Assembly: GCF_000317145.1 (NCBI RefSeq)
Contig: NC_019697.1
Span: 3,568,385-3,632,384, forward strand
DNA: 64,000 bases
Direction: 5' to 3'
Source of the DNA: Chamaesiphon minutus PCC 6605
Lineage (GTDB): Bacteria; Cyanobacteriota; Cyanobacteriia; Cyanobacteriales; Chamaesiphonaceae
The notes beneath the pieces are model-generated. The model was given only the letters and a program-made list of their open reading frames with translations, was not told the origin of the DNA and did not search any database. Each line of letters starts with the position of its first letter. Positions within the stretch are counted from its first letter, which is position 1. A program made the translations under genes and the position numbers. This document shows positions 21,168 to 37,370 of the stretch, in pieces.

Positions 21168-21180
21168 TGTGTAAAAACAT

Positions 21181-21308
21181 AATAAAGTCGTATACTGTTA
21201 AAGGCTGAAAACCTTGATTTCTCGTCGCCATTTTTCAATTATTTAGAAATAAAGTTGTATACTTTGATTGCGCTATCTATCCAGATAGAGATAATAAAGT
21301 TGTATACT
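21181..21308 (+). repeat. Left-end TnsB-binding-type repeats (three, widely spaced)
   Basis: AATAAAGTCGTATACT at 21181-21196 and AATAAAGTTGTATACT at 21248-21263 and 21293-21308. Spacings are 67 and 45 bp. Wide spacing at the cargo end matches the asymmetric Tn7 left end. They are exact or near-exact complements of the right-end repeats. Confidence 0.92.
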
Positions 21309-21673
21309 ATCTCAAAAGCTTTGCTCTGATTAGGTTCTAGCTCAATCTTTTCTCAGTTAAGTGTCAAAAATACGACTAATGTCTTGCTCGCAGTGAACCA
21401 TGCTATTAAAGGCAAAATTTAGTTGAGCTTTGGCTCGATTTATGAATTCGGGTTATCAATTTTTATTCAGATATTAGGCGTGAAGAATTGGTGCTAAATT
21501 TTATAGGATTGATAAATCCCCTGATGATTTAGTGCATATCGATCGACCGAAAGCAAATAGATGCTTTGATTTTCAATCTGACAAGTTGCCAAGAGGTTAA
21601 GCTAAATATCCCAACTTGAGCAGAGGGAAATAGCTTTGCGGCATACTAGAAGAATGAAGTAAATAGAGTAGCT
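21309..21673. other. Cargo-side non-coding stretch of the CAST
   Basis: A/T-rich, no convincing gene, RNA or repeat. It presumably holds the promoter of the cargo operon. Confidence 0.4.
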
Positions 21674-22114
21674 ATGCCAGAACCAATTACCACCATGACT
21701 GCTAGCGCGATCGCGTCTCTTGCCTTTCAAGAGTTTGTGAAGTCTGGGACGGGAGAACTCGCGAAGAAGTTTACCGCAGGAGCGATCGTTAAGATGGAAC
21801 AGTTACGAGAACTGATTTGGAAACGTTTGGCTGGGAAGCATCCGGCGGCTGATGCGGCGATCGAAAAGGCTAAGGCTGGAGAACAGGAGGGAATTGACAC
21901 GGTGGCAACGTTTTTAGGTGTCGAACTGTTAGATCGGGAGTTTGCTGGGCAGGTGCAGGCGATCGCTCATGAAATCAATGCTGGGAAATTAGTAGATCGG
22001 AGTTCGATGGTTCAGAACAATTACGATAATGCTAAGGGTTGGCAGACGAAGGTGGAGGGTGGAACAGCTTATATTGGCGAAATTCACATCTTGGAAAAGC
22101 GGTCTGAGCCTTGA
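21674..22114 (+). CDS. Small partner of the STAND ATPase (CAST cargo)
   Basis: 146 residues. The N-terminal part is helical (MTASAIASLAFQEFVKSG, then LAKKFTAGAIVKMEQLRELI). The C-terminal tail has DNAKGWQTKVEGGTAYIGEI. The same tail type (DNATGFQ...STVYAGINHVY) begins the next protein, so the pair shares a motif that probably mediates contact between them. Such N/G-rich DNAxGFQ...VYxG motifs are common in cyanobacterial NACHT/NB-ARC loci. The gene lies 32 bases before the ATPase gene. A role as an effector-associated or adaptor component of a defence or signalling pair is inference. Confidence 0.6.
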   Translation: MPEPITTMTASAIASLAFQEFVKSGTGELAKKFTAGAIVKMEQLRELIWKRLAGKHPAADAAIEKAKAGEQEGIDTVATFLGVELLDREFAGQVQAIAHEINAGKLVDRSSMVQNNYDNAKGWQTKVEGGTAYIGEIHILEKRSEP

Positions 22115-22146
22115 TGGTTATTTAAGGGCGATCGAGAATCTAGGAT

Positions 22147-23919
22147 ATGCAGCAAGACAACCGAGATAATGCAACAGGTTTCCAAATAGATGCAGATAAT
22201 TCAACAGTTTATGCTGGTATAAACCACGTATATCAGTCGTCTCGTCCGCCCAAATGTATTCCTTTTCAGGCGTTGGCGTTGCCAAAGGATTATGTCGATC
22301 GACCAGAAATTCGACAATTAATTAAATCAAAGTCGCTCGATTCACTCCCTTCCAAAGCTGGAATACTGGCGGTAAGTGTAATTTACGGGATGGGTGGAGT
22401 TGGTAAATCAGTAATTGCAGCAGCACTAGCACACGATATTGAGGTGCAAAGTGTTTTTGTTGATGGGGTGCTGTGGGTAACTTTGGGACAAAGCCCAGAT
22501 CTGTTACCGTGCCTGTATGCTTGGGTTCAATCTTTAGGAGACTACGACTTTAAGCCCACAAACATTGATTCTACCTCCTCTCATCTTCGTAGTTTGTTGC
22601 GCGACAAAAAGATCCTACTGGTGGTGGATGATGCCTGGAATAACGATAGTGTAGTTCCTTTTCTGGTAGGCGGTGAAGGATGTCGAGTATTGGTAACAAC
22701 TCGTGAAGCCGATATACTTGATGCTGAACGGATTGAGATGGATGTCATGTCTCAATCAGAGGCTTTAGACCTATTGATGAGTAGGGCAAAAATTCAATCA
22801 TTAGCGGATTTAACGGCTGAAGAGATTAAACAATCACAAAGGTTAATTGATGTCCTTGGTGGCTTGCCATTAGCAGTCGATCTAGCTGGGGCACAGATTG
22901 CTGATGGTATGAGTTGGTCTGAATTATTAGAGGATTTGGAGGCGGAGATTGCCTATCTAGAATCGCTGGATCGACCGAATTTTGGGGGAGAGAGAAATGA
23001 CAAAAATCGAAAGCGATTGAGTTTAAAAGCGTCATTGAATTTGAGCTTGAAGTTATTGACAGCAGAACAGTTACAACAGTTTGCTTGGTTGGGAGTCTTA
23101 CCAGAGGATGTCTCAATTCAGCCAGAAATGGTGGCTACGCTGTGGTATATGCCAATCAAAAAAGCTGGGGCAGTCTTGCGAACTTTTAGAGCGAAAGCTT
23201 TGCTATTATCTGGGGTGGAAGGAGTAAGGAAAGGATCGAGTTATCGAATCCACGACTTAATGCACGATCTGGCAAGGGGTTTACTGACGAGTGCGGGTGA
23301 GAAGGATATTCCAGGTTTAGAGCTGGAATGGAATGACACGCATGGAATTTTGCTCGATCGATATCGTCAGCAAACTACGGAGGGTCAATGGCATACGTTA
23401 CCAGATGATGGATACATTCACGCTCATTTAGCTTGGCATTTAGAAAAGGCAGGCAGATCGGATGAATTACATTTATTGCTACAGAAAGTGACAACAAGGG
23501 GGCGGAATGCTTGGTATGAAGCCTGCCTATCTCTAGGTCAGAATGCAATATTTGTCACCGATCTGGGACGGGCTTGGCAATTAGCCGAAGAAATGTATCA
23601 AAGAGATACCTCACAATCGATCGGTTTACAAGTTAGGTATGCGTTGATTTTTTCTAGCTTAAATAGTTTGGCTGTTAATATTCCTTCTCAATTAATGGCT
23701 GCATTAGTAAAAAAGGAAAAGTGGTCGCCTAACCAAGCGTGGATTTATGCTCGACAATCAATAAAATCACATTCAAATAGTGAGATGATTCGAGATCTGG
23801 CACCCTTTCTACCACCGATGCTGCTTTCAGAGGCATTAGTTATAATGAGTGAATTTCAAGATGATGCTCAAAACCTGAGTTCGATGAGGCTGTGCCTCAT
23901 CATCAAATCAAGTCTCTGA
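22147..23919 (+). CDS. NB-ARC (STAND) ATPase, 3' end cut by a mobile element (CAST cargo)
   Basis: 590 residues as read. P-loop VIYGMGGVGKSVIAAAL near residue 85, Walker B KILLVVDDAWNN near 157, sensor-type VLVTTREAD near 180, GGLPLAVDLAG near 235 and a winged-helix MHD-like segment (YRIHDLMHDLA) near 370. This is the NB-ARC switch module; helical repeats follow. The last residues (SSMRLCLIIKSSL) come from a palindromic IS end at 23875, so the native C-terminus is lost. A likely tail, SDDRTIYSQKFTKISRTKLL, resumes after the insertion at 25213. NB-ARC proteins act in anti-phage defence or signalling; the effector here is not recognisable. Confidence 0.82.
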   Translation: MQQDNRDNATGFQIDADNSTVYAGINHVYQSSRPPKCIPFQALALPKDYVDRPEIRQLIKSKSLDSLPSKAGILAVSVIYGMGGVGKSVIAAALAHDIEVQSVFVDGVLWVTLGQSPDLLPCLYAWVQSLGDYDFKPTNIDSTSSHLRSLLRDKKILLVVDDAWNNDSVVPFLVGGEGCRVLVTTREADILDAERIEMDVMSQSEALDLLMSRAKIQSLADLTAEEIKQSQRLIDVLGGLPLAVDLAGAQIADGMSWSELLEDLEAEIAYLESLDRPNFGGERNDKNRKRLSLKASLNLSLKLLTAEQLQQFAWLGVLPEDVSIQPEMVATLWYMPIKKAGAVLRTFRAKALLLSGVEGVRKGSSYRIHDLMHDLARGLLTSAGEKDIPGLELEWNDTHGILLDRYRQQTTEGQWHTLPDDGYIHAHLAWHLEKAGRSDELHLLLQKVTTRGRNAWYEACLSLGQNAIFVTDLGRAWQLAEEMYQRDTSQSIGLQVRYALIFSSLNSLAVNIPSQLMAALVKKEKWSPNQAWIYARQSIKSHSNSEMIRDLAPFLPPMLLSEALVIMSEFQDDAQNLSSMRLCLIIKSSL

Positions 23920-23960
23920 CTGTGCTTGAGTCATAAACATCAATTATTAAAATGAGATAT

Positions 23961-24007
23961 TTCCAAGTCATTATCAATAAGCTTTGATTATTGATAATGA
24001 CTTGGAA
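23961..24007. repeat. Perfect 20-bp stem, 7-base loop hairpin
   Basis: Arms TTCCAAGTCATTATCAATAA and its exact complement (23988-24007) around the loop GCTTTGA. It lies upstream of the IS982 transposase, within the element, with no T-run after it. It could be part of the element's regulation or a separate insertion footprint. Confidence 0.8.
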
Positions 24008-24166
24008 GTAAAACGTCGATCGATAATTACAAATAATTAACAATTAATAAGTTATTAAAAGTTCTGAGGAGCGGTCGGCAAATAAAAGTACAAATAGCAT
24101 TGCAACCCTTATGTATAATCTCTGATTCTGGTTAAATTAATATATATATTAGAAAACCACACTTAG

Positions 24167-25057
24167 ATGATGGACTTAACCGAACTATTTTGTGAAATAG
24201 ATGATTTCTGCCAAGATTGGCTAGCAACTTTTTCATCAATATCTTTCCCTGCCAACGGTAATAGCTTACCAAAACGCTGCGGCCTATCACTGAGCGAGGT
24301 CATGACTATTTCTATTCATTTCCATCAGTCAAGCTATCGAACATTTAAGGATTATTACCTCAAAAATGTTTGTCAAAACTTAACTGATTATTTTCCAAAG
24401 TTGGTTAGTTACAATAGAATGGTGGAGTTGATGCCAAATGTTTTAATAGCTTGCCTTTATTATCTCAACTCTCGTCAAGGTAAGGTGACTGGAATTAGTT
24501 TCGTGGATAGCACGGCTATTCCAGTTTGTCACCCAAAAAGAATTAAAAGAAATAAGGTTTTCAAAGAAACTGCCAAGCTGAGTAAGAGTTCTATGGGATG
24601 GTACTTTGGATTCAAGCTTCATTTAATTATTAATGATTGCGGAGAGATATTAAGCTGCAAAATCACACCTGGCAATGTCGATGACCGCACACATTTGCCA
24701 TCAATGACACAGGGAATATCAGGAAAAATATTTGGAGACAAAGGATATATTAAGAAAGAACTATTTGAAGAATTATTAAATAAAGGATTGCAGCTAATTA
24801 CGCCACTAAAATCTAATATGAAAAACAAGCTCATCTTGATGGATGACAAAATATCACTTCGGAAACGCTCGCTGATTGAAACGGTAAATGACCAGTTAAA
24901 AAATATTTGTTATTTAGTCCATTCTCGCCATCGGAGCTTGCATAATTTCATGCTAAATCTGATTACAGCATTAATTGCTTATACTCATCAACCTAAAAAG
25001 CCGAGTTTGAAGCTAGATGAGCCTGCTCAAAACTTCTTTAGTATTGTTCCTATTTAG
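24167..25057 (+). CDS. IS982-family transposase
   Basis: 296 residues. IS982 DDE signature: GISFVDSTAIPVCHPKRI near residue 105 (first Asp), KLHLIINDCGEILSCKITPG, IFGDKGYIKKELF near residue 185 (second Asp) and KRSLIETVNDQLKNI near 235 (Glu). The KxHSRHRS-type segment LVHSRHRSLHNF follows. Length is normal for the family and the frame is intact, so the enzyme may be active. It is oriented the same way as the STAND gene it interrupts. Confidence 0.92.
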   Translation: MMDLTELFCEIDDFCQDWLATFSSISFPANGNSLPKRCGLSLSEVMTISIHFHQSSYRTFKDYYLKNVCQNLTDYFPKLVSYNRMVELMPNVLIACLYYLNSRQGKVTGISFVDSTAIPVCHPKRIKRNKVFKETAKLSKSSMGWYFGFKLHLIINDCGEILSCKITPGNVDDRTHLPSMTQGISGKIFGDKGYIKKELFEELLNKGLQLITPLKSNMKNKLILMDDKISLRKRSLIETVNDQLKNICYLVHSRHRSLHNFMLNLITALIAYTHQPKKPSLKLDEPAQNFFSIVPI

Positions 25058-25210
25058 CCGATTATTTATTTATTAACTTAACTCAATATTTTCAATCATT
25101 AATCATCTTAATGATGGGTTTTATCGTGCCAAAATTTACATAAAATTTGCTATTAAGCTGAACATGTTGTCACATCTGAGTTCGATGAGGCTATGCCTCA
25201 TCGAACTCAG

Positions 25211-25284
25211 GTTCCGACGATCGAACCATCTATTCTCAAAAATTCACTAAAATCAGTCGAACTAAACTGCTACAAGCTTTTTGA
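25211..25284 (+). pseudogene. Possible detached 3' end of the STAND gene
   Basis: Directly after the palindromic IS end, the frame SDDRTIYSQKFTKISRTKLL + QAF-stop looks protein-like and lies on the same strand as the NB-ARC gene. Frame restoration could not be shown because no target duplication is evident. Confidence 0.35.
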
Positions 25285-25409
25285 AGATTAGATTTCAACA
25301 ATCTACAAGCACCCCACACTAAATCTAAAACTCCATAAATCCTACGGGGACAAGAGTGTAGGTAATTTCTCACCAATTTCGGCTCTCACAGACACAGGTG
25401 CTTGTATTT

Positions 25410-26048
25410 TTAGTCAGTCTGAATCTGTGTCCAAGAAAGTGCTGGCGGCTTCCAATCAACAGATTTTATCAATCTATATCGCAACCAGCGAGTGCGTTCA
25501 GATCCTAACCGATCGATCCAATAAGGTAGAGTTATCTCCCCATACTCGTCTTGAGTAAGCCATTTCAAAGCTCCTTGCTGATGCTCATTTGTAAGTAAAT
25601 CGATCGAGTTTACCAAGTCGCGACTCTCACCCAAACAAATATTGCCGAACCTGACGACCGAACTTGGATTGACCATCGCATTATGAAGTCGTTCTGCAAG
25701 ATTGAGGATCGATCGATCTTCTGCTGCATCGATCCAGACAACAAACTTAATCCCAGTTAGGATCTCCTGGTAATCTGGTTTGGAGTTTTTCGATGAATTA
25801 ATATCTCGCTCTTTAAATCTGCGGACTTTCCTAATTACTCTGGATTTAGCCGTTTCCGATAGCATCGCGATCGCTAATTTCACACCACAATGCCTGAACC
25901 TATTCTCTTCGCCAACTGTCGATAACAACATACCATAAACAGTTGAAGGTGGTGGTACTGGATAAGTCGCAATGTATTCTCTCGCTCTGGAATCCCGAAA
26001 ACAGGCAATCGGGACTTCTACTTGCAAGGCAATTTTATTAATTGTCAT
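25410..26048 (-). CDS. cas5: Cas5 (type I-B/DevS-like) of the CAST
   Basis: 212 residues. Starts with the Cas5 ferredoxin-fold strand IALQVEVPIACFRDSRAREY, then the glycine/proline motif YPVPPPSTVYGMLLSTVGEE near residue 35, both standard for Cas5. The middle has VVWIDAAEDRSILNLAERL and SSVVRFGNICLGESRDLV. Cas5 caps the 5' handle of the crRNA in the Cascade complex. It is the last cas gene, 7 bases after cas7, and its frame is intact. No array follows that I can recognise. Confidence 0.85.
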   Translation of the reverse strand: MTINKIALQVEVPIACFRDSRAREYIATYPVPPPSTVYGMLLSTVGEENRFRHCGVKLAIAMLSETAKSRVIRKVRRFKERDINSSKNSKPDYQEILTGIKFVVWIDAAEDRSILNLAERLHNAMVNPSSVVRFGNICLGESRDLVNSIDLLTNEHQQGALKWLTQDEYGEITLPYWIDRLGSERTRWLRYRLIKSVDWKPPALSWTQIQTD

Positions 26049-26459
26049 TAGCTAATCACTTTTGCTTTGCCTCTAGTTCCAAATCCCTTGTTATTACCTC
26101 TTTTAAAGCATTAATGGCTGACAAACTACCAGGGAAAAGATGTGCGCCAAGCCCCTCTAATCCCTGAGATAGTTGACCACCAATCCAGAGTTCTTTTGGA
26201 TTAATATCTCCAGATTCCACTCTGTAAATTAGATCGGGTAACGATAGCTGCTCTTGTTCATCTTGCTCGAAACAGTATAGAAGTCGAGGGTTCAAATCTT
26301 TAGTCCAGCGCAGCACGATATTCGTGGGCGCAAAATCAAACAGAAATCTTCCATGATTTCCAGCCACTTTATCAATACCGACTAAACCATCTAAAACATC
26401 CAGAGTGCGAGATTTGTCTCGCAGATACTCAGGGGATAGACAAAAGCCATACTGATAGT

Positions 26460-27943
26460 CATTCGTGACAAGTTAAGAAAATCAGAGATTTGTCAAAAGG
26501 GTAATAAAAAGATGCCAAACTGTTTCTAGTCAAGAGTTTGAGGGAATAGAGGCCTGATGACCAGCCGCCGAAGAAGTAACCGCGACCACGCCAAAAAGAA
26601 CCACCAACCAGGTGTGGAAGATGAGATCATCGCCGCTCAAGTAGAGGCTTTATTGACACCAGCAATTTTCAATCAAAGTCATTACTACCGACAATTAGGG
26701 CTGAGAAATCGGCTGTTAAATTTACCCTTGATGATGGCAGCAGTGCTGACGCTACTGTGGCGGAATGTGCCAGGAGTCAGAGAACTAAGCCGAATGTTAG
26801 GGCGAGAAGGATTTTTGTGGTGTGAGCCAACACAAGTAAGTCAACAGGCGATTGCACAAAGATTTCTGACCTTTCCATCTGAGTTATTTGAGAGAGTGTT
26901 TAAGGAATTACTGCCAGAATTTAGAGTGAAGTGGCACCAGAGAAAACAGCGATTGTTGCCACAAAGCATTGAATTTGCTCAAGCAAAATTTGAGCGGATT
27001 TGGGCATGTGATGGCTCCACATTGGAAGCGATATTCAAGAAATTAGATAGCTTATCTGATGTGCCAATCGGACAACTAGCGGGAAAAATGGGAGTAGTCA
27101 TAGATTTGGTGACGAGATTGCCGATTGAAATCTGGTTTAGAGAAAATCCCAAAGCTTCAGATGTTAATTTTGAGAAAGATATCCTGAATTTAGTAACATC
27201 GGGCACTTTATTGCTCTTGGATCGAGGCTTCTATCATTTCCAATTTTGGCAAGAATTAATTAACAGAGATATTCATTTTATTACTCGATTAAAAAAAGGT
27301 GCATCGCTACAGATAGAGCGAGTATTTAGCAATAGTTATAGTATCCGTGACCGAATAGTGCGGATGGGGTCTGGCACCAAAAAGACTCCATATATAACTG
27401 TAAGATTAGTCGAAATTAAAGTGGGTAAAGTCTGGTATTCTTATCTAACTAGTGTACTCGACCCATTGAATCTTCCTCCCTATGTAGTCGCCGATTTGTA
27501 CGGAAGACGGTGGCGAATTGAAGAGGCTTTTAATACTGTTAAACGATTGCTCGGGTTGAGTTATTTATGGACTGGTTCAGTTAATGGAATTAAATTACAG
27601 ATGTGGGGGACTTGGCTGTTTTATGCAGTTCTAGTCGATTTAGGTGATGCTGTAGCTGATGAATTATCTCTCCCATTCGACCGCATTTCTTTAGAGATGA
27701 TTTATCGAGGTCTTTATCACTTTCATGTAGCTCATCATAAAGGTTTAGCTGCCAATCCAGTCACCTATTTTGCTGCCCCAGAGAATCAAGATTTAGGTAT
27801 TGTTAAAACTGTTCGTAAACCTAATGTTAAGTTAATTATTGCACCTTTTCCTGATTCTATGAGTCGAACAGACAATTTTTTCTTCGACTCATCGCCTCAA
27901 GCCCGCTTGACAAGTGCGATCGCTTCTTAACTTGTCACTAATG
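26460..27943 (+). mobile_element. IS4-family element inside cas7
   Basis: 1484 bp. Ends CATTCGTGACAAGTTAAG (26460) and complement CATTAGTGACAAGTTAAG (to 27943), 17 of 18 matching. Direct 9-bp duplication ACTGATAGT at 26451-26459 and 27944-27952. The intact duplication indicates a fairly recent, simple insertion. Confidence 0.93.
26557..27930 (+). CDS. IS4-family transposase
   Basis: 457 residues with an intact frame. First Asp in WACDGSTLEAIFKKL near residue 150, second in LLLLDRGFYHFQFW near 222, and the IS4 signature Y-x2-R-x3-E-x6-K in YGRRWRIEEAFNTVK near 315, followed by LLGLSYLWTGS. It is oriented opposite to the cas genes. The N-terminus is rich in Arg and His and probably binds DNA ends. 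Confidence 0.92.
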   Translation: MTSRRRSNRDHAKKNHQPGVEDEIIAAQVEALLTPAIFNQSHYYRQLGLRNRLLNLPLMMAAVLTLLWRNVPGVRELSRMLGREGFLWCEPTQVSQQAIAQRFLTFPSELFERVFKELLPEFRVKWHQRKQRLLPQSIEFAQAKFERIWACDGSTLEAIFKKLDSLSDVPIGQLAGKMGVVIDLVTRLPIEIWFRENPKASDVNFEKDILNLVTSGTLLLLDRGFYHFQFWQELINRDIHFITRLKKGASLQIERVFSNSYSIRDRIVRMGSGTKKTPYITVRLVEIKVGKVWYSYLTSVLDPLNLPPYVVADLYGRRWRIEEAFNTVKRLLGLSYLWTGSVNGIKLQMWGTWLFYAVLVDLGDAVADELSLPFDRISLEMIYRGLYHFHVAHHKGLAANPVTYFAAPENQDLGIVKTVRKPNVKLIIAPFPDSMSRTDNFFFDSSPQARLTSAIAS

Positions 27944-29228
27944 ACTGATAGTATGTCGCATGTCGTTCTGTGGCATGGAGGGAATTGCGGTCTTTTACAC
28001 CACTTCTAGCACTAAAAGTAACATCGCCGTGGAATGGTCGAGTAGAGACAGCCGGAGTAACATCAAGTGCCCCACGCCGTTTAACCGCTGTGCCTTTAGG
28101 TTTTGGCTTGCCTTTCGCTCGACCTTTGGCTGGAATTGGTGGTACTTCGGGATCTTCCTCCGCATCATCTATTTTTGCGGCTTCTGCGTGCATAAAGCCC
28201 AGAATATCGTCATCAAGATATTTATCTGGATCGAAATTAGGATCTTCCCATGTGGACTCTAGTATGAGCGGATTCCAGACCCGATTTACTGGCAATCCTT
28301 GTCGTTGCCAAGTGTAGCGTAATGACCAGCGAATAGCCTCAGCCGAGACTGTAGTGTGAGTTTCTCCGTGCCACAGAAGCTTTTGTAACTTGGAGATGTT
28401 TCCTTCATTTTCTCCACGATTATTAGCGGCAACACCATACGCAGTCAAAATATTACCAAAAAGATTAAACATGTCGAACCTCCGGTTCTGTAATGGCTGT
28501 TGATGGATCTTCGGCTGGAAGTTTATCAGGATCTGGAAGTTTCTCTTCCCCTTTGTAGCTAGCCAGTGCCAGGAAAAACAGACTTTTTGCCATCTTCCAG
28601 TCACTTTGTCCAGTTGTCAACGGTAATAGTTTTTGCCAAGATTCTTGCAAAACTTGGATGTTTCCAGCATTTCCCCAAAACGAGGTGATAAAGTCTCGAA
28701 ACGCTGAGGCATTTTGACATCGCTCCAAATTCGATCTCAGTTGGATGACTTTCCGCTCAAATTGCGGATAATCACCCTCTTTTGTTTTCCCGCCAATTTT
28801 GCCAAAAGTTATCCTCAAACCTTGGTGACAAGCTCTAACAAATAGTTCTTGTGACTCAGTATCCCATTCAGTTTTTTTCACCATATCATGTATTCGATCT
28901 TGACGAAATTTAATAGCTAAATATGCTTTTTTATGAATAAAAACATCCGTAAATCCCCACCACCAAGGTTTTCCTCGAATGAGATTTTCTGCAATAAACT
29001 GGGAAAGGGGATCGTCTTGTCTCGATTCCCCACAGAATGTCTGATAAAGCTCCAAATGTTGAGTCTCGATCTCGATCGTTTCGGCTGCTAGACGAGTTTG
29101 CTGCTGTTTTGACCAAGTAACTTTACCAAAAGGAATTACTAGGCATCTGTGAATATCAGCTTGAGACTGCTGATTAACCACAGTTGTTTTTAGTAAGAAT
29201 TTTAGTGCTGCGTCAGACCAGCCGTTAG

Positions 29229-30653
29229 CAGCAATTCCAAATTCAGATTTTGACAACTTGGTAGGGTGAGCAGGAGAATAGAGAGACTTCAAAAAGAGAA
29301 GCAGAATGGAGCCAATGAAGCTGAGTTTTGGGGTATTGATAGTCTATCTGAACCGAGCAATTCTTCAGATGAAAGATCCGCGCCTTGCCAGCAATGGCAC
29401 TAAATACACCATCAGAGATGCTGTGTTGGGAGCATTTTCGATGTTTTTCATGCAAAGCGAATCCTTTTTAGAACATCAGCGGCACATGAATAGCAATCAG
29501 GGCAAAAGCAATGCTCAGACACTGTTTGGCATGATTAAAATCCCAACAGTGCCGCAAATTCGGAATATCCTGGATGAAATTTCAGCCACAGCACTATTTG
29601 GAGTATTCAATCACGTCTATCAGTCTTTAAGACGAGAAGGTCACTTGAAACCGTTTGAATATCTCGGTGGATTACTAGTTGCGCTGGATGGAACTCAGTA
29701 TTTTGACTCGCACAAACTCAACTGTAAATGCTGTTCGAGCCGTACCCACAAAAATGGCACAGTAACTTACTTCCACAGTGCCATTTTGCCTGTAATAGTT
29801 GCGCCTGGGCAATCTCAAGTAATTTCCTTAGCTCCAGAATTCATCACACCTCAAGATGGTCACCAGAAGCAGGACTGCGAAGTGGCAGCAGCTAAACGAT
29901 GGCTCAAAACTCATGCCCCAGAATTCCAAGGACAAGCAATCACTCTACTCGGAGATGACCTCTACAGTCACCAACCAATGTGTGAACAGGTGATAGCGTC
30001 GGGAATGAACTTTATCTTTACCTGTTTAGAAACGTCTCATACTGCTGTTTATGATTGGTTGAAATACTTGGATGGTATTGGCGAGGTGAAAAAGCTAGAA
30101 GTGAAACAGTGGAACAGCAATTCAAGCGAATTATATAGCTATCAATATGTGAATGGAATTCCTCTAAGGGACTCCCAGCCAGCAATGAAGGTCAATTGGT
30201 GTAAACTAATCCATACCCGCCAATCAGATGGAGAAATATTATATGAAAATTCATTTATTACCCGCCATGAATTAAACGAACAGAGCGTACCTCTGGTTGC
30301 TGCGGCTGGTCGATGTCGTTGGAAGACCGAAAATGAAAATCATAATGTGCTCAAAACAAAGGGATATCATCTGGAGCATAACTTTGGGCATGGTCAGCAG
30401 CATTTAGCTGCTTGTTTATTGACGCTGAACCTGTTGGCATTCCTTTTTCACACTGTTTTGCATTTAACAGATCTTGCATATGGACAGATTCGTCTCAAGC
30501 GTGTTACTCGTAAAGGCTTTTTTCAAGATATCCTCAGTCTTACCAAATATTTACTCTTTGAGAGTTGGCCTTCTTTGATTGATTTCATGCTTTACGGCTC
30601 GGCTTCCACTCTGGTCGCCAACTCTTCCTAGATTTTTGAATTTGGAATTGCTG
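29229..30653 (+). mobile_element. ISNCY-like element inside cas8
   Basis: 1425 bp. Terminal inverted repeat CAGCAATTCCAAATTC, perfect over 16 bp, at 29229 and (complement) ending at 30653. The flanking 7-bp duplication CCGTTAG / CCGTGAG has one mismatch, so it may be older than the IS4 insertion. Confidence 0.85.
29306..30631 (+). CDS. Transposase, ISNCY-like DDE type
   Basis: 441 residues, intact frame. Likely catalytic acids lie in LLVALDGTQYFDSHKL near residue 125 (followed by the CKCCSSRTHKNGTVTYFH segment typical of this group), ITLLGDDLYSHQPMCE near 215 and RCRWKTENENHNVLKTKGY near 345. The last resembles the E of a DDE triad within an IE/TE-N-H-N motif. The C-terminal half ends with hydrophobic helices (LAACLLTLNLLAFLFHTVL). 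I assign it to the unclassified ISNCY group by these motifs; a remote IS4/IS1202-type relationship is possible. Confidence 0.75.
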   Translation: MEPMKLSFGVLIVYLNRAILQMKDPRLASNGTKYTIRDAVLGAFSMFFMQSESFLEHQRHMNSNQGKSNAQTLFGMIKIPTVPQIRNILDEISATALFGVFNHVYQSLRREGHLKPFEYLGGLLVALDGTQYFDSHKLNCKCCSSRTHKNGTVTYFHSAILPVIVAPGQSQVISLAPEFITPQDGHQKQDCEVAAAKRWLKTHAPEFQGQAITLLGDDLYSHQPMCEQVIASGMNFIFTCLETSHTAVYDWLKYLDGIGEVKKLEVKQWNSNSSELYSYQYVNGIPLRDSQPAMKVNWCKLIHTRQSDGEILYENSFITRHELNEQSVPLVAAAGRCRWKTENENHNVLKTKGYHLEHNFGHGQQHLAACLLTLNLLAFLFHTVLHLTDLAYGQIRLKRVTRKGFFQDILSLTKYLLFESWPSLIDFMLYGSASTLVANSS

Positions 30654-30776
30654 CCGTGAGGTGGTTGGAGTTTAAGATATTCGAGATATTTTAATTGGAC
30701 GAATAAACCCGCTACTCCTGCACGGTGGAGAAAGGTCATACTCGGATCGCGAATATCTAGGTGAATTTTGGCCATC

Positions 30777-31433
30777 TCAGGGAGTAAATAAGCCACAACC
30801 CATCTTCCGCCTTCCCCCAATACCTTGCTGTTGTAGCATTAGTGAATCTAGATCGCTAAGTCCCTCGACTCTAACTCCAAAGCCAACTACTTTCTTCTTG
30901 TTAATTTTGACGGTTCGACATCTCGGTTGACCATCAGAGCGAGTTAAAACCCGAACTTTACCAACAATCTCCAATCGATCGAGATGGTTCTGTGCGGCTG
31001 TGTCTAATGTACTTGCATCTAAAAAACCTTTGATCGTGACAATTCGAGCCTCTAAATTCTGAGACGGCACAATTAATTCCAATTCAGGAATGCCGAGATA
31101 GATTTTGTCTTGATGAATTTGAAGAGTCTTTCCTGCTAATTTGTAGATCGATCGAGACAGATCCAGCGGTAGTCGAATCTTCAATACAGAATCAACATCG
31201 ATGTTTAATCGTTTGGAGTAAGCCCCACTGAGCTTTCCATTAATCCCAAAGATACCAATCGAGTTGGACTCATGAAATTCTGGAATTATCTGGGAAATAC
31301 CGCCATACAAAGGATGTGCGTGATCTACCCCGATCGATTGCCCCTCAACCGGAAATAAATAATCACCGAATTCCTCGCTACAGGATCGGCAACAATCTCG
31401 CTCTTCTGAAGTGCGATCGGGGAGAATAGTCAT
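30777..31433 (-). CDS. cas6: Cas6 crRNA endoribonuclease of the CAST
   Basis: 218 residues. The C-terminus carries the Cas6 glycine-rich loop GIGGRRKMGCGLFTP, and the upstream KKKVVGFGVRVEGLSDLDSL leads into it. The N-terminal ferredoxin fold contains EGQSIGVDHAHPLYGGISQI and LLLP-type strands (VLKIRLPLDLSRSIYKLAGK). Cas6 cuts the pre-crRNA at the repeat hairpin. It is the first cas gene, 111 bases after tniQ, and its frame is intact. The likely catalytic histidine is in VDHAHPLYGG, by family position. Confidence 0.85.
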   Translation of the reverse strand: MTILPDRTSEERDCCRSCSEEFGDYLFPVEGQSIGVDHAHPLYGGISQIIPEFHESNSIGIFGINGKLSGAYSKRLNIDVDSVLKIRLPLDLSRSIYKLAGKTLQIHQDKIYLGIPELELIVPSQNLEARIVTIKGFLDASTLDTAAQNHLDRLEIVGKVRVLTRSDGQPRCRTVKINKKKVVGFGVRVEGLSDLDSLMLQQQGIGGRRKMGCGLFTP

Positions 31434-31544
31434 ACTTACGAGATTTTACTAAGCTTGACGTTATCAGTACTTGGTTACTATTTTAAACTATATTTTCATG
31501 CTGAAGTACCTTAAACTTGTTTATTTTTTGTTTTTGTACACTAA

Positions 31545-32504
31545 CTAATGTGACATCACAAAATCAGTAATTGAGCCAAAAAGATATCTGATAATTAAAA
31601 TATGCGCTACTCGATCGATCTTTGGATCTAAATCTCCTGCGAACAAGCAATGAATGAGGTACTTACCCTCAGTGTCTACAAAACGAGGCTCAATCCAGTT
31701 CAAAGATTCCTCATCATAAAAATCACGGAAAGATTGGAAAAGCTCCCGTTCATCAAATTTAAACTCTCCCCTGAGTAGTTTTTTGACCGATCCTCGTTTG
31801 CACAATTGAGCAATATATCGATCTCGCAACCACCCCATCCCACGGAAATCAATTCTCGTATCTACTAGCCAGACTAGATCGGTTGCTATCTCAAGTAGAT
31901 GTTTGAGACTGTCTGGAGCAAGCTCTGACTGCTCCATATCAACAATGCAATTTTCATCGCTAGCGGCATGATAGTGAACACCATGACTATCTATCAGCAC
32001 ACTACTGTCGAGCAGCAAAATCCGATGTTGAGTGCAGATTACCAATCCTGGAATCTGATGAAGGCGATGCCAGTATGGTTCTCCGTATTGTTCAATTTCT
32101 GTTGTTAAACACAGAGGGCAGAATTTTAAGTATTTCCGGCGATCGCTAGTACTATCTAAATCAACTCTAGCCTGTTCTAAGATTGAGCCACTGCGTTTCT
32201 CGATCGTTGCCGATCCTAATTTTCTTATCTCGATCGGGCTTAGAAAGGCAGCATAAAATGGATATAGAGTATTATGCTCCATTAACGATCTCACTCTATA
32301 GTCCGAGATATGAGCTATTTGTTTGACCAAACCCTTCAAGTTATTAGTCAGCGTGACTCGACAAGCTTGCTGAGAAGAGTAACCAAATAAATCTAAATCG
32401 GTTTGTCGAAAGCTCTGATTGCCACTGCGAATATGATATCTAGCCAATCCACTATATAAGAGTTCATCAGGGTAGAGGCGAGGAAAAGAAGCGAGGGCAC
32501 ACAT
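31545..32504 (-). CDS. tniQ: TniQ/TnsD-family targeting protein (short form)
   Basis: 319 residues. N-terminal TniQ motif FPRLYPDELLYSGLARYHIR + SGNQSF, followed by the zinc-binding stretch KFCPLCLTTEIEQYGEPYW and HRLHQIPGLVICTQHRILLL (CxxC...CxxH). It ends soon after VAHILIIRYLFGSITDF, where longer TnsD proteins carry a DNA-binding second half. It is thus either a Cascade-linked TniQ or a shortened TnsD. It is the only TniQ-family gene in the element, although the insertion lies at the glmS attachment site usually recognised by full TnsD. Starts 10 bases after tnsC. Confidence 0.88.
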   Translation of the reverse strand: MCALASFPRLYPDELLYSGLARYHIRSGNQSFRQTDLDLFGYSSQQACRVTLTNNLKGLVKQIAHISDYRVRSLMEHNTLYPFYAAFLSPIEIRKLGSATIEKRSGSILEQARVDLDSTSDRRKYLKFCPLCLTTEIEQYGEPYWHRLHQIPGLVICTQHRILLLDSSVLIDSHGVHYHAASDENCIVDMEQSELAPDSLKHLLEIATDLVWLVDTRIDFRGMGWLRDRYIAQLCKRGSVKKLLRGEFKFDERELFQSFRDFYDEESLNWIEPRFVDTEGKYLIHCLFAGDLDPKIDRVAHILIIRYLFGSITDFVMSH

Positions 32505-32514
32505 AATTTAGGCT

Positions 32515-34194
32515 TCAGTTGATGTACTCGGCTACTGGATCGCAAATCAGTCCTACCGATTTGATGTCTTCATATGCAGATGTGTTACTATCGATCGCTT
32601 TTGCAACAATTTGACGTAGATCATCTTTTTGATAAGCGGGTTCTACCTTTTTCTTCTTTGGTTGAGGTTGTTGTTTGACTAATGCTGAAGTATGTCCAGT
32701 AGATCCTACCAAAGAAAGTTTATAAGCTTGTTTGACCAGAACACTAATATCTGCTTCAGCTTTATTATTCGTTATTACCTGCTCTGCACATTCTTTTGCT
32801 ACATGAGGAGAGACATCTAATTCGAGTAATTCTGCAATTGTCGCTCTTAACAGATTAGAATCAATTTTATGATCCTGTAGCTGTTTATTTTTTCTCAGTG
32901 TTAATTCATGGAGTTTCTTCAGACATTTCTGCTCATATGCCAAAATGTCTAGTGGTGCAATATCTTTGTACCGTAACATTTCCTCCTTATCATTATTCCT
33001 TATCGCTGCTAGCATTGGCTTCAACAAGTGTAATCCGTCATTTGCGACTTGCCTAATCAAATCTACAGAAATAGCTTCATCACCATCTAAAGCAATACTT
33101 CGACATTGAACCATTCTAAATAATTTAATTGCAATATCAATTATACCTTGAGTTTCATCATAGAAAGCTTCTTCTAGTGCCGTCGATAGCTCTACCTTCT
33201 TTCTTGTCCATTGATATTTCCATAAGTTTTCAACAAATAAGTCCCATTCATCATCATCTTTCTGCATTCGATCCCAAATGACGCTACCTTCGCCTGTGCC
33301 TCTTCTAGCATTACGAAAATTACCCTGAAAGATCGGTAATGCCTCATTCGTTCCAACTTTAATGACTGGTACACCGATGATGTTATCCATCTTAACGAGG
33401 AAGTTTAATAAGTCATCCTTCCGTCTACGTGCATTTACTAGATTTTGCATTTCATCAATGACTAGCACTCCCAAGTGATGAGTGTTAGCAAGCTGTGCAA
33501 CTTGAGCTAGCATCAAGTCTTCTGTATGATTACGGGAACTGAATTTTGTATGATAAGTTGTACCCAAGAGTTTATCTATTGCCATAAATATATCAGTACA
33601 CAATCCCTTCAACGAACCAGCGTGAGGACAATCAACTTTTAGCCATACTATTTGATATGTACTTAATTTAGGATGAAAAATAACTTGATCGTAAAGTGAA
33701 AGTATTTTATGTAAGTTAGTTGATTTCCCCATGCCAGATGGCCCAATTAATGTCAACCCTGATGCAGAAGTTGGCTGACTGACATACCTTTCTAGTTCTC
33801 TACCACTAGAATTCTCAATCGCTCCATAAATTTGTCGAGATCTTAATGCAAAAGTAGGCTTTAATGGATTACGGGCGAGGTAGCCTCTTTTTATTAAAAT
33901 GCTGATATTATTATTCAGCTCGATCGTTTTACCCTGGGGATCGAAGTAGCTTGACAGTCTAGCAACGCAATGAAATCGCTCTGATTTATTTAGACAAACT
34001 TCATCATCATTATATTCAGGTTCTTCATAGACAAGATCTATGAATTCTTCGTTATCGAATGTGGGTGGTAGTGCCTGAATTAATAAATTTTCATTATATT
34101 CTCTCAACTTTTGATCGATATATATAGCTTCAACACCCATATGTTTTCGATCGATATTTTGAGGAATTGTTATTTTGTCATCAGTTTTTTCCAC
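32515..34194 (-). CDS. tnsC: TnsC, AAA+ transposition regulator
   Basis: 559 residues. Walker A GPSGMGKSTNLHKIL near residue 152, Walker B LGVLVIDEMQNLVNARRRK near 240, then a sensor-type VIKVGTNEA near 280. TnsC is the ATPase that links target recognition (TniQ/TnsD) to the TnsA/TnsB transposase and confers target immunity. The N-terminus has an extension with acidic motif YEEPEYNDDE that may contact TnsB or TniQ. The start overlaps the end of tnsB by 14 bases, so translation is coupled. Confidence 0.93.
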   Translation of the reverse strand: MEKTDDKITIPQNIDRKHMGVEAIYIDQKLREYNENLLIQALPPTFDNEEFIDLVYEEPEYNDDEVCLNKSERFHCVARLSSYFDPQGKTIELNNNISILIKRGYLARNPLKPTFALRSRQIYGAIENSSGRELERYVSQPTSASGLTLIGPSGMGKSTNLHKILSLYDQVIFHPKLSTYQIVWLKVDCPHAGSLKGLCTDIFMAIDKLLGTTYHTKFSSRNHTEDLMLAQVAQLANTHHLGVLVIDEMQNLVNARRRKDDLLNFLVKMDNIIGVPVIKVGTNEALPIFQGNFRNARRGTGEGSVIWDRMQKDDDEWDLFVENLWKYQWTRKKVELSTALEEAFYDETQGIIDIAIKLFRMVQCRSIALDGDEAISVDLIRQVANDGLHLLKPMLAAIRNNDKEEMLRYKDIAPLDILAYEQKCLKKLHELTLRKNKQLQDHKIDSNLLRATIAELLELDVSPHVAKECAEQVITNNKAEADISVLVKQAYKLSLVGSTGHTSALVKQQPQPKKKKVEPAYQKDDLRQIVAKAIDSNTSAYEDIKSVGLICDPVAEYIN

Positions 34195-36427
34195 GTTTAT
34201 TCTTCTCTCTTTTTGCTCTTAGTAAATCAGTGTAGTTAGGTTTCAAGGATGGTTGCGGTGAAATTGAGCTAGATTTGTCTGGGTCTGTCTTCGATAAAAT
34301 TTTACTACTGTCTTTTTCTTTAGGTGATAAGTCGAACGATTCTTCTTCACGGCGATTTTCTTTTTCAATACTTCTATTATCTCGAATTGCAGAAGTTCTT
34401 GCCAGTTTACTCATGGTAGGATCTTGAACAGCATTAGTCATATCAACTGCTCGATCGACAATCTTTTCAATTTCCTTATTCAAATCTATTGTTTGAGGTA
34501 GCTCACGATTGGCACTCTTTTGCCGTTGTAATTCCTCTTCAGCAAACAAGTACCCAACATCATAGAAGTTATGACTTTTATATTTCGAGTCTGGAGCGAT
34601 TAGAATACATTGTGTAAAACTACGACCATCTTGCGCTGGGATATAAATATAATCAGTTTTTCGCGGATCGTAGGAAACTTCTAGTTTTTTTTCTGCTCTA
34701 GATAGAGATCCAGCTCTAGCATTAGACAGCCACATCTCTTTATCTGCTCGATCGCAAGTATAGTAAATACCTTTGAATTTAATTCCTTTCTCCGTGATGG
34801 TAGCATTTCCCCTCGGCATTAAATTGAGTTTAATAATATCGGGATCTAAAGTTCTAAGCCTACCTGAGCAATGGATAATTCCCCATTTCCATAATTGGGC
34901 AGGAATAGGTAACACTTCATCTGCGATCATTTCTACTGTTCTTGGATAATCCTTCAGCATATGTTGGTTATTATGATGCAGAATCATCCGAATGATAATT
35001 TGAGTGAATTGATCTAGATCGAGCTTACTGTCTAACCGATAATCACGGCCACCTCTTTGATTGAAGTCTATATCAACGGCTCCGGGTATAAAAGGTTTTA
35101 CTTTTTCATTGATAATCCGAAAGCGTCTCTCTACAATACCTTTCCAATCTGGTCTGAATGGTGCTGCATTTTCAATCTTAATATTCAGATTTTGAGTTAC
35201 TATATTTGCATTTTTGCTAATTAATTCACCACGATCTCCTAAAATAGCATCTGGCAAATGATGACAGGGCCAGTCATCTTCCGAAATATCGATTCCATAC
35301 TGTCGGCAGTATTCAACCTTATCCATAGCCATATTAGCTAGAGCCATCATCATCCCCAACCAAGATGGCCCCTCTAGTCCAACATAGACTCCAGTAATCA
35401 TCCGACTAAAAACATCAATCACAACATAAATTACTGGTCTGCCAATAATCCATTTGCGGTTGTAACTGGAGACGAGGTAGACATCTCCCACTGTTGCATC
35501 TACTTGATAACGAGAACCAGGCCCAGTCACCTCTGCGGTTGAATTACCTGTGATCGGACGGTAATTTTGCAAATATTCTCTCTTTCCAATCCTTGTGCTT
35601 ATCTTTTTCTCTACATTTTGACCATGCTCCAAATCATACCAATACTTAAATTGTACTAACGAGGGTATTCGATCTTGCATAGCAATCGAACCATGCAAGT
35701 CATCATAATTAGACAAGTCCTCTTCAGAATAGTATTCTTGGATCATTTTTTCATACGCTGCTACCAACGATCTTTTTTCAGATGTATGATAAAACTGAGA
35801 AATTGCCACTCGAAAGGTCATTTTTGTCTCTTCTGTGACATTAACCCCAATCCCTATTTCAGGATCGTTAGCATATTTTCTAGGTCTGCCCCTTTTTACA
35901 TCTCCTGCTAACTTCTGCTTACCTTTTCCTCCCGAATTTTTATAATCCGGTAACAGTGCATTAATATTTTTACCTCTTTGCCAGTATCTCTTAAGATATT
36001 TGTAAACAGTCTTTTTAGTTAATTTACCCTCGACTTCACTTGAGCTTCTAGTTGTATTGTGATCTTCTATTAATTTGAGTACTAGAGATCCACGTTGATT
36101 TCGCTCGTATATGGGTGGTTCCTGAGTAACGATAGATGAAATGATTCTCCAAGCAGCGTCTCTTAGTATTTTATCCTTGGATGATAATTCTTCTTCTAAT
36201 ACTATCAAAACCCAAGGATCTTTTTTGATTATGATCGCAGCACTCGATTTAATACATGCTTCTATTTCATTGATAAATACTTGTCTAGGAAGTGATTTTT
36301 CTTCATAGATATTAATCAAAAATGCAACCTCATAACCTTCGTCAATCCATAGTATTCGATCGATCTGATTCTTTCCGTCTTCAGAGATCCACTCAACTAA
36401 GTTATTGACAAATAGATGAACTTGCAT
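34181..36427 (-). CDS. tnsB: TnsB, DDE transposase
   Basis: 748 residues. An N-terminal helix-turn-helix region (TKKTVYKYLKRYWQRGKN near residue 140) binds end repeats. The retroviral-integrase-type core has Asp in YQVDATVGD near 305, Asp in AILGDRGEL near 390 and Glu in DWKGIVERRF near 435. A Mu-type C-terminal beta barrel follows. The last ~60 residues (PKEKDSSKILSKTDPDKSS then KPNYTDLLRAKREKNKRGKN) form the charged tail that recruits TnsC in the family. Its frame is intact; it starts 22 bases after tnsA. TnsB cuts and joins the 3' ends and should bind the repeats at both ends. Confidence 0.95.
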   Translation of the reverse strand: MQVHLFVNNLVEWISEDGKNQIDRILWIDEGYEVAFLINIYEEKSLPRQVFINEIEACIKSSAAIIIKKDPWVLIVLEEELSSKDKILRDAAWRIISSIVTQEPPIYERNQRGSLVLKLIEDHNTTRSSSEVEGKLTKKTVYKYLKRYWQRGKNINALLPDYKNSGGKGKQKLAGDVKRGRPRKYANDPEIGIGVNVTEETKMTFRVAISQFYHTSEKRSLVAAYEKMIQEYYSEEDLSNYDDLHGSIAMQDRIPSLVQFKYWYDLEHGQNVEKKISTRIGKREYLQNYRPITGNSTAEVTGPGSRYQVDATVGDVYLVSSYNRKWIIGRPVIYVVIDVFSRMITGVYVGLEGPSWLGMMMALANMAMDKVEYCRQYGIDISEDDWPCHHLPDAILGDRGELISKNANIVTQNLNIKIENAAPFRPDWKGIVERRFRIINEKVKPFIPGAVDIDFNQRGGRDYRLDSKLDLDQFTQIIIRMILHHNNQHMLKDYPRTVEMIADEVLPIPAQLWKWGIIHCSGRLRTLDPDIIKLNLMPRGNATITEKGIKFKGIYYTCDRADKEMWLSNARAGSLSRAEKKLEVSYDPRKTDYIYIPAQDGRSFTQCILIAPDSKYKSHNFYDVGYLFAEEELQRQKSANRELPQTIDLNKEIEKIVDRAVDMTNAVQDPTMSKLARTSAIRDNRSIEKENRREEESFDLSPKEKDSSKILSKTDPDKSSSISPQPSLKPNYTDLLRAKREKNKRGKN

Positions 36428-36449
36428 TGTGAATTATTCAAATGTTAAC

Positions 36450-37262
36450 TTAGTTGAATTTGAGATCTTTTGTTGGGAAAAAAGTAAGTGATTTCTCCGT
36501 TAGCATGTCAACTGAGATCAATTTATTTGCCACAAGATACTTAAATAGGTAAAGTGATGTACCTAGCCCAACATTCATTTCTATATCCAAGTCATTAACA
36601 ACTTTACCGACAGTAGTAGTATCTGTTTCTAGCTTCGATCTCAAAATTTTGATTATGTGATGAAGCTCTTCTTTATTAGCCTCTTTATTTCCTTCTAGTT
36701 TGTGGGATGAATGAATCCATTCAACATTTTTTATCATTAACTTGGGAATATCTTTTTCCGTGACTATTTTCCAGTCGATCTCTTTAATGGCATAGTAACG
36801 CCTTTCTAGTTCTAGTTTCATTGCTGTCCGCTTATTATTTAAACTCTTGGAAGGTTTAAACGTTCTTGCCTCATAAGTATTTTTCCCTTTATGAGTAACG
36901 GTCAACATGAAATCTGTGCTCAGGACATAAGGGGCACCACTTTTGGGATCTTTAGGGTATTCAACTCCCATGTCTTCTGCAATCTTGAAGCACAACTCTC
37001 GATCGAGTAATGGAAATTGCTCTCGAATATCAACAATCCGATCTGACCACTCGAATAAATAGAACAGTCTTGTCTCACCATCGGACATGAAATGATGCTC
37101 TCGACTAGTCTTCCAGCCTAAAACTCTTGATACACGTCCACTGGAAGAAAAATCTGAAACTTTGATCCATGGATTGTAGTCTCGACCGATACCATGTCCT
37201 CGACCTTCCTTCATATATCGGTCGAGTTTCTCTTCTGTCCAGTCTCTTTTGCTTCTGACCAT
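36450..37262 (-). CDS. tnsA: TnsA endonuclease
   Basis: About 270 residues from ATG at 37262 (MVRSKRDWTEEK); an upstream in-frame ATG at 37277 adds five residues. TnsA-type core: LFYLFEWSDRIVDIREQFPL near residue 65 (first acidic residue), YVLSTDFMLTVT near 110 (Asp) and EARTFKPSKSLNNKRT (lysine), then LELERRYYAIKEIDWKIVTE. TnsA has a restriction-enzyme fold and cuts the 5' ends, enabling cut-and-paste movement. The presence of separate tnsA and tnsB distinguishes this element from type V-K CASTs. Its start lies only 42 bases from the right-end repeats. Confidence 0.92.
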   Translation of the reverse strand: MVRSKRDWTEEKLDRYMKEGRGHGIGRDYNPWIKVSDFSSSGRVSRVLGWKTSREHHFMSDGETRLFYLFEWSDRIVDIREQFPLLDRELCFKIAEDMGVEYPKDPKSGAPYVLSTDFMLTVTHKGKNTYEARTFKPSKSLNNKRTAMKLELERRYYAIKEIDWKIVTEKDIPKLMIKNVEWIHSSHKLEGNKEANKEELHHIIKILRSKLETDTTTVGKVVNDLDIEMNVGLGTSLYLFKYLVANKLISVDMLTEKSLTFFPTKDLKFN

Positions 37263-37303
37263 ATGAAAAATCTGCAAATGCTAAGTAAACACTCACAGAC
37301 AAT

Positions 37304-37360
37304 AGTATACAACTTTATTAGTCAGTATACAACTTTATTATTTAGTATACGACTTTATTG
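37304..37360 (-). repeat. Right-end TnsB-binding-type repeats (three, 20-bp period)
   Basis: AGTATACAACTTTATTA at 37304-37320 and 37324-37340, and AGTATACGACTTTATTG at 37344-37360: three 17-mers exactly 20 bp apart. Dense packing at the glmS-proximal end matches the Tn7 right end. Confidence 0.93.
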
Positions 37361-37370
37361 TGTTATCACA

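Follow-up and report, generated by a model that had tools for sequence, protein, structure and literature searches.

Can a CRISPR-guided transposon be caught after it has lost the means of choosing its target? This question is raised by a locus in the cyanobacterium Chamaesiphon minutus PCC 6605, which we analysed within a 64-kb stretch of DNA (positions 3,568,385 to 3,632,384 of the 6,284,095-bp contig NC_019697.1; hereafter the window, whose numbering is used throughout). A Tn7-like element of 16.2 kb, at 21170-37370, lies there just past the glmS gene. It carries tnsA, tnsB, tnsC and tniQ together with the type I-B effector set cas6-cas8-cas7-cas5, in which cas8 and cas7 are broken. We hold with high confidence that this is a decayed type I-B1 CRISPR (clustered regularly interspaced short palindromic repeats)-associated Tn7-like transposon (CAST), left with its TnsABC-TniQ core and both ends, apparently deprived of its aiming and probably immobile. 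An initial annotation had proposed a Tn7-like type I-B CAST at glmS; this is borne out, and the I-B1 kind is indicated by the order of the genes, the place of insertion, the arrangement of the end sites and the trees. The element is a fresh example of an already known family, in a damaged, fossil-like copy.

According to PMC11406308, I-B1 CASTs are cyanobacterial elements near Tn7 that have both a glmS-targeting TnsD and a TniQ partnering Cascade, with TnsD absent in some members. In the light of the family features given there, our element resembles the I-B1 CASTs (AvCAST, Tn7743) in its separate Tn7-near TnsA and TnsB, its Cascade-partner TniQ, its cyanobacterial host, its type I-B effector lacking cas1, cas2 and cas3, and its insertion just past glmS. 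It differs from them in having neither TnsD nor a CRISPR array, and in its broken cas8 and cas7.

A Tn7-like core between two ends at glmS

The termini, 21170 and 37370, were set by homology between both ends; this moves the left boundary two bases further in from the 21168 initially given. The three TnsB-type repeats proposed for each end proved to be six perfect copies of the 16-bp AATAAAGTYGTATACT, three per end and facing inward (21181-21308 on the plus strand, 37304-37359 on the minus strand). They are spaced by 20 bp at the right end and by 67 and 45 bp at the left. Allowing up to one mismatch gave no further match in the window, and 100 shuffles gave none. The right end begins 24 nucleotides (nt) after the glmS stop codon, as the initial annotation had it, and the position is identical in an intact sibling element from Chamaesiphon sp. 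341R_metabat_111 (genome G391; loci L067, L093 and L126). In all ten other elements checked (sibling included), the first end site lies 36-38 nt after the glmS stop. Eight of these ten have three right-end sites at 20-bp spacing above the match threshold and the remaining two, L131 and L132, have two sites; the site counts refer to elements that were printed and scanned, with L133, L135, L143 and L148 outside the scan.

On the minus strand, reading away from glmS, the gene order is tnsA, tnsB, tnsC, tniQ, cas6, broken cas8, broken cas7 and cas5, and the reading frames of tnsA, tnsB, tnsC, tniQ, cas6 and cas5 are intact. The ends, the attachment gene and the transposition genes are as follows (aa, amino acids).

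21170..21308 (+): left transposon end with terminal TGT; TnsB-type sites at 21181, 21248 and 21293
31545..32504 (-): tniQ, Cascade-partner type (TniQ_IB), 319 aa; PADLOC TniQ_IB 2.7e-108
32515..34194 (-): tnsC; Tn7 TnsC chain 8.3e-87
34181..36427 (-): tnsB; Tn7 TnsB chain 1.4e-119; D310, D398, E433
36450..37277 (-): tnsA; Pfam TnsA N and C domains
37304..37370 (-): right transposon end with terminal TGT; three TnsB-type sites spaced by 20 bp
37395..39269 (-): glmS, host attachment gene

TnsA and TnsB are separate proteins of the Tn7 branch, and we take D310, D398 and E433 of TnsB, on the model of Tn7, to be the catalytic DDE residues. The likeness to Tn7 further extends to the glmS site and to the best solved-structure matches of TnsB and TnsC, which are the Tn7 chains listed above. 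The element differs from Tn7 in its cas genes and CAST-type TniQ. Where the initial annotation read tniQ/tnsD, only the first name stands: the 319-aa TniQ_IB is the sole TniQ-family gene of the element.

Damage by insertion sequences and apparent loss of aiming

The damage is best read against the sibling. The two elements share DNA (87% identical over 6.9 kb, a stretch that runs from the glmS end beyond cas6), the 24-nt glmS position and the right-end sites; their TnsB proteins are 88% identical, and sibling proteins overall are 82-95% identical to the window's parts. What the sibling has and the window element does not are unbroken Cas genes, a six-repeat array, a 627-aa TnsD and Hma defence genes as cargo. 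All sibling genes are open: tnsA, tnsB, tnsC, tniQ, cas6, cas8 (494 aa), cas7 (352 aa) and cas5. Its array begins about 250 bp past cas5 (L067:10051-10446) and is followed by matches to HmaA, HmaC and HmaB, a GmrSD-type gene, and then TnsD (L093:3575-5458; Pfam TnsD 5.1e-114). The sibling's left end was not found by site pattern.

The alignment of window and sibling has three interruptions, each at an insertion sequence (IS), in accord with the IS-riddled state described initially. The features of this part of the element are as follows (ORF, open reading frame).

23873..25212 (+): 1340-bp IS with a DDE_Tnp_1_3 transposase, lacking a target duplication
25410..26048 (-): cas5, intact
26056..26459 (-): cas7 3' part (ORF 26056-26367), 95% protein identity to sibling cas7
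26460..27943 (+): 1484-bp IS inside cas7, flanked by the 9-bp duplication ACTGATAGT
27944..28604 (-): cas7 5' part, listed from GTG at 28604; TIGR02585 6.8e-28, match from residue 53
28465..29228 (-): cas8 (Csx13/Cmx1-type) 3' part; TIGR03486 7e-38
29229..30653 (+): IS, 1425 bp, no target duplication, at a deletion of about 575 bp inside cas8
30654..30799 (-): stretch beyond the IS that aligns with the initial ~146 bp of sibling cas8 and overlaps the cas6 end (alignment coordinates only)
30777..31433 (-): cas6, intact

The reported cas6-cas8-cas7-cas5 without cas1, cas2 or cas3 is correct as a gene set, and a Pfam scan of the 14 element ORFs found none of those three genes (the genome outside the element was not searched for them); cas8 and cas7, however, are broken. 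Lying between copies of ACTGATAGT, the cas7 IS reads as a simple insertion, and a target duplication accompanies 18 of 19 other copies of this 1484-bp IS that were examined. The true cas7 start is likely an ATG near 28472, in which case the first 44 codons as listed overlap cas8. At the 1425-bp IS, about 575 bp of the 5' half of sibling cas8 (L067 6902-7477) is absent from the window; ten of 11 other copies examined have a 9-bp duplication. The 1340-bp IS (duplications at six of seven other copies examined) occupies the place that in the sibling holds the array, other cargo and tnsD, and to its right the sibling alignment ends 55 bp short of the sibling's first CRISPR repeat. A partner copy that would account for the lack of a duplication at 23873 was sought; L159, the sole other copy without a duplication, misfits in a comparison by eye.

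No CRISPR array with the sibling's repeat was found in the window, nor any repeat within three mismatches of it genome-wide, and no glmS-targeting TnsD was found in the element or elsewhere in the genome. From gene placement in the sibling and relatives, set beside this absence, we infer that the array and tnsD were lost secondarily with the third IS. With cas8 and cas7 broken and neither array nor TnsD at hand, both aiming routes appear lost.

A possible objection is that the CAST is a working one, in which TniQ and what is left of the Cas machinery direct insertion with CRISPR RNA (crRNA) from elsewhere. We do find cas6, cas5 and tniQ open and conserved. Moreover, sibling Cas8, which matches the type I-B Cas8 of a solved structure (1.7e-56), also shows, at residues 366-476, a match to the Cas11 chain in a solved type I-B complex, and this region is kept in the window's 3' part. 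Nevertheless, with cas8 interrupted and some 575 bp of it gone, cas7 divided by the 1484-bp IS, and a genome search that turned up no matching repeat, we regard such guidance as extremely improbable. A second objection is that this is now a plain Tn7-like element whose TniQ alone directs untargeted or loosely targeted insertion, with the cas genes as decaying passengers. TnsABC, TniQ and both ends are indeed intact, and a TniQ-only element, Tn5469, appears untargeted according to PMC11406308. However, the only full-length match to TnsB in the genome is TnsB itself, giving no sign of recent copies, and the TniQ belongs to the Cascade-partner type; we give this reading a small chance. (The genome has two TniQ-domain genes, the second of which, with a TnsB relative, forms another Tn7-like locus at G000:C1:1193417-1196214, L003 and L006.)

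We therefore keep to a decayed I-B1 CAST with a history along these lines. The ancestor would most likely have inserted 24 bp past glmS through a TnsD reading the glmS 3' end, as its position and the sibling's TnsD suggest, and, judging from the family, could also have been sent to other DNA by Cascade-crRNA through TniQ. ISs would then have broken the element, one interrupting cas7 and another interrupting cas8 with loss of about 575 bp. The array and tnsD, presumably with further cargo, would have been removed as well. The remaining core, with no evident aiming, would probably be immobile unless a related TnsD were supplied in trans. The damage, including loss of both aiming modules, looks recent because genome copies of the three ISs are 99-100% identical (at least 21, at least 11 and at least 7 others, in the order 1484, 1425 and 1340 bp, among the best 40 of 125 candidates scored). 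In line with recent damage, purifying selection is seen on most genes, with ratios of nonsynonymous to synonymous divergence (dN/dS) from the sibling of 0.085-0.137 for tnsA, tnsB, tnsC, tniQ, cas6, cas5 and the cas7 5' part. The element shows one way in which a CRISPR-guided transposon can die.

Several observations weigh against this account or parts of it. First, the cas8 piece is under looser constraint (dN 0.075, dS 0.291 vs sibling). Second, we found no fragment of the array or tnsD in the window copy. Third, the 5-bp target duplication of Tn7-like transposons is lacking at the outer ends (TGGTG / GTGTT), so that the left flank is not established as original. As a control we sought left ends of other elements and found none, even in a further 40 kb of genome G064; and the 326 bp between gltB and the left end has no match beyond chance among the fetched DNA (best E 0.079). 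An inversion may have taken the element with it. Fourth, dS between window and sibling is 0.29-0.74 for element genes, 0.94 for glmS and 0.48 for the gltB end; since element-gene values fall below that of glmS, although they resemble the gltB value, it is not proven that both Chamaesiphon elements were inherited vertically from one ancestor. Fifth, genome G388, the closest to the window by glmS, has no right-end trace past that gene (score 18, against a shuffled mean of 19.4).

The cargo attracted attention initially for an NB-ARC gene. The gene is there, but its frame runs into an IS.

21674..22114 (+): 146-aa cargo ORF without a match in Pfam or PADLOC
22147..23872 (+): NB-ARC ATPase gene (cargo); Pfam NB-ARC 9.4e-24; frame enters the IS at 23873 and has its stop at 23919

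The IS at 23873 appears to have truncated this gene, whose protein has no match at 1e-20 besides itself across 30 genomes, the present one and those of 29 relatives.

Relationships among CASTs

A TnsB alignment used to scan species genomes yielded 23 loci, and a locus from G064 brought these to 24. A cas set lies beside tnsB in 11, glmS upstream of tnsA in 16 and TnsD beyond cas5 in six; many loci are ended by contig ends or by the fetched length. The order glmS-tnsA-tnsB-tnsC-tniQ-cas6-cas8-cas7-cas5 recurs in relatives. Sibling aside, the window TnsB is 53-56% identical to that of ten other cas-bearing loci. Across the phylum, a TniQ_IB match at E <=0.001 was found in 28 of 386 genomes.

The initial annotation had proposed comparing TnsB and TnsC trees with CASTs. 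The window does pair with the sibling CAST in both (TnsB, 23 rows, support 99/100; TnsC, 20 rows, 100/100); the separation from non-CAST elements is less clean. A 100/100 branch of the TnsC tree has on one side 15 of the 16 cyanobacterial rows (all but L144), and this side also holds L134 and L145, with tnsD and no detected cas genes, as well as L133 and L135, loci too short to tell. The corresponding TnsB branch, of 16 rows, has support 83/99. In the TnsB tree, Hydrococcus L134 and Iningainema L145, which have tnsD directly after tnsC, are interspersed with the CASTs, whose rows therefore do not form one clade there.

The Cas5 tree (15 rows) sets 12 CAST rows, 11 at glmS plus L127, apart from three other cyanobacterial type I-B loci with support 100/100. 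In the Cas6 tree (14 rows), the CAST rows, L127 included, stand apart from the same three loci at 99/99, with a long-branch warning; by identity the window Cas6 is no closer to CASTs, at 36-43% to most CAST rows vs 40-41% to the three other loci. L127 itself (Nostoc linckia FACHB-104) has CAST tnsABC-tniQ-cas6-8-7-5, yet the 9 kb ahead of its tnsA gave no match to glmS, and it may use another attachment site. Gaps occur in other I-B1 CASTs too: L130 is without tniQ and the bulk of both tnsC and cas6, and L139 has a cas8 scrap and no cas7 match.

Compared with other I-B1 CASTs, the Chamaesiphon pair forms a long separate branch, AvCAST itself being outside the sequences compared, and the intact sibling is a candidate I-B1 system on a branch distant from the Nostocales members compared. 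None of the papers listed in our search on Tn7 and CRISPR transposons mentions Chamaesiphon, and none was found that links Chamaesiphon minutus to glmS; the element may already be tabulated in cyanobacterial Tn7 surveys. In a search on decayed CASTs, none of the matches listed uses the term CRISPR-associated transposon.

The glmS site in Chamaesiphon

The glmS 3' flank is readable in seven of ten congeners and family members (G386-G395). It holds the intact element in G391 and short right-end- or tnsA-start-like stretches in G390 and G389 (scores 42 and 52, reached by none of 300 single-base shuffles). Nothing clear of shuffles was seen in the flanks of G388, G387, G394 (score reached by 56 of 300) and G395 (152 bp only). 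Counting the window, four of eight readable genomes have an element or remnants past glmS. No clean empty gltB-glmS site, such as the initial annotation suggested looking for, was found in the relatives read. These genes are not a fixed pair: they are on the same strand 5.5 kb apart in G388, and on separate contigs in G391, G390 and G389, the contigs of the last two being too short to exclude a gltB-glmS neighbourhood. A genome search with the DNA downstream of glmS in G388 gave repeats and scattered fragments (among the best 40 of 245 candidates).

Beyond the sibling's tnsD, L093:5466-6340 holds a piece of cas5, a single CRISPR-repeat-like sequence and a stretch like a right end and tnsA start, whose right-end-like score of 60 was reached by none of 300 shuffles; these remains give the impression of older CASTs stacked at glmS. 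That Chamaesiphon hosts a long-separated I-B1 CAST branch with repeated use of glmS, in intact, decayed, remnant and stacked form, is a proposition that we rate as about as likely as not. Homing to glmS by crRNA was considered and found no support: the best fits of the five sibling spacers to their own glmS locus (4872 bp), 17/30 to 23/37 bases, are chance-like, with no control run.

Outside the element, directly upstream of the window's glmS, lies a transposase gene (DDE_Tnp_1_assoc) at 39509-40750; the DNA surrounding it is uninterrupted in G388.

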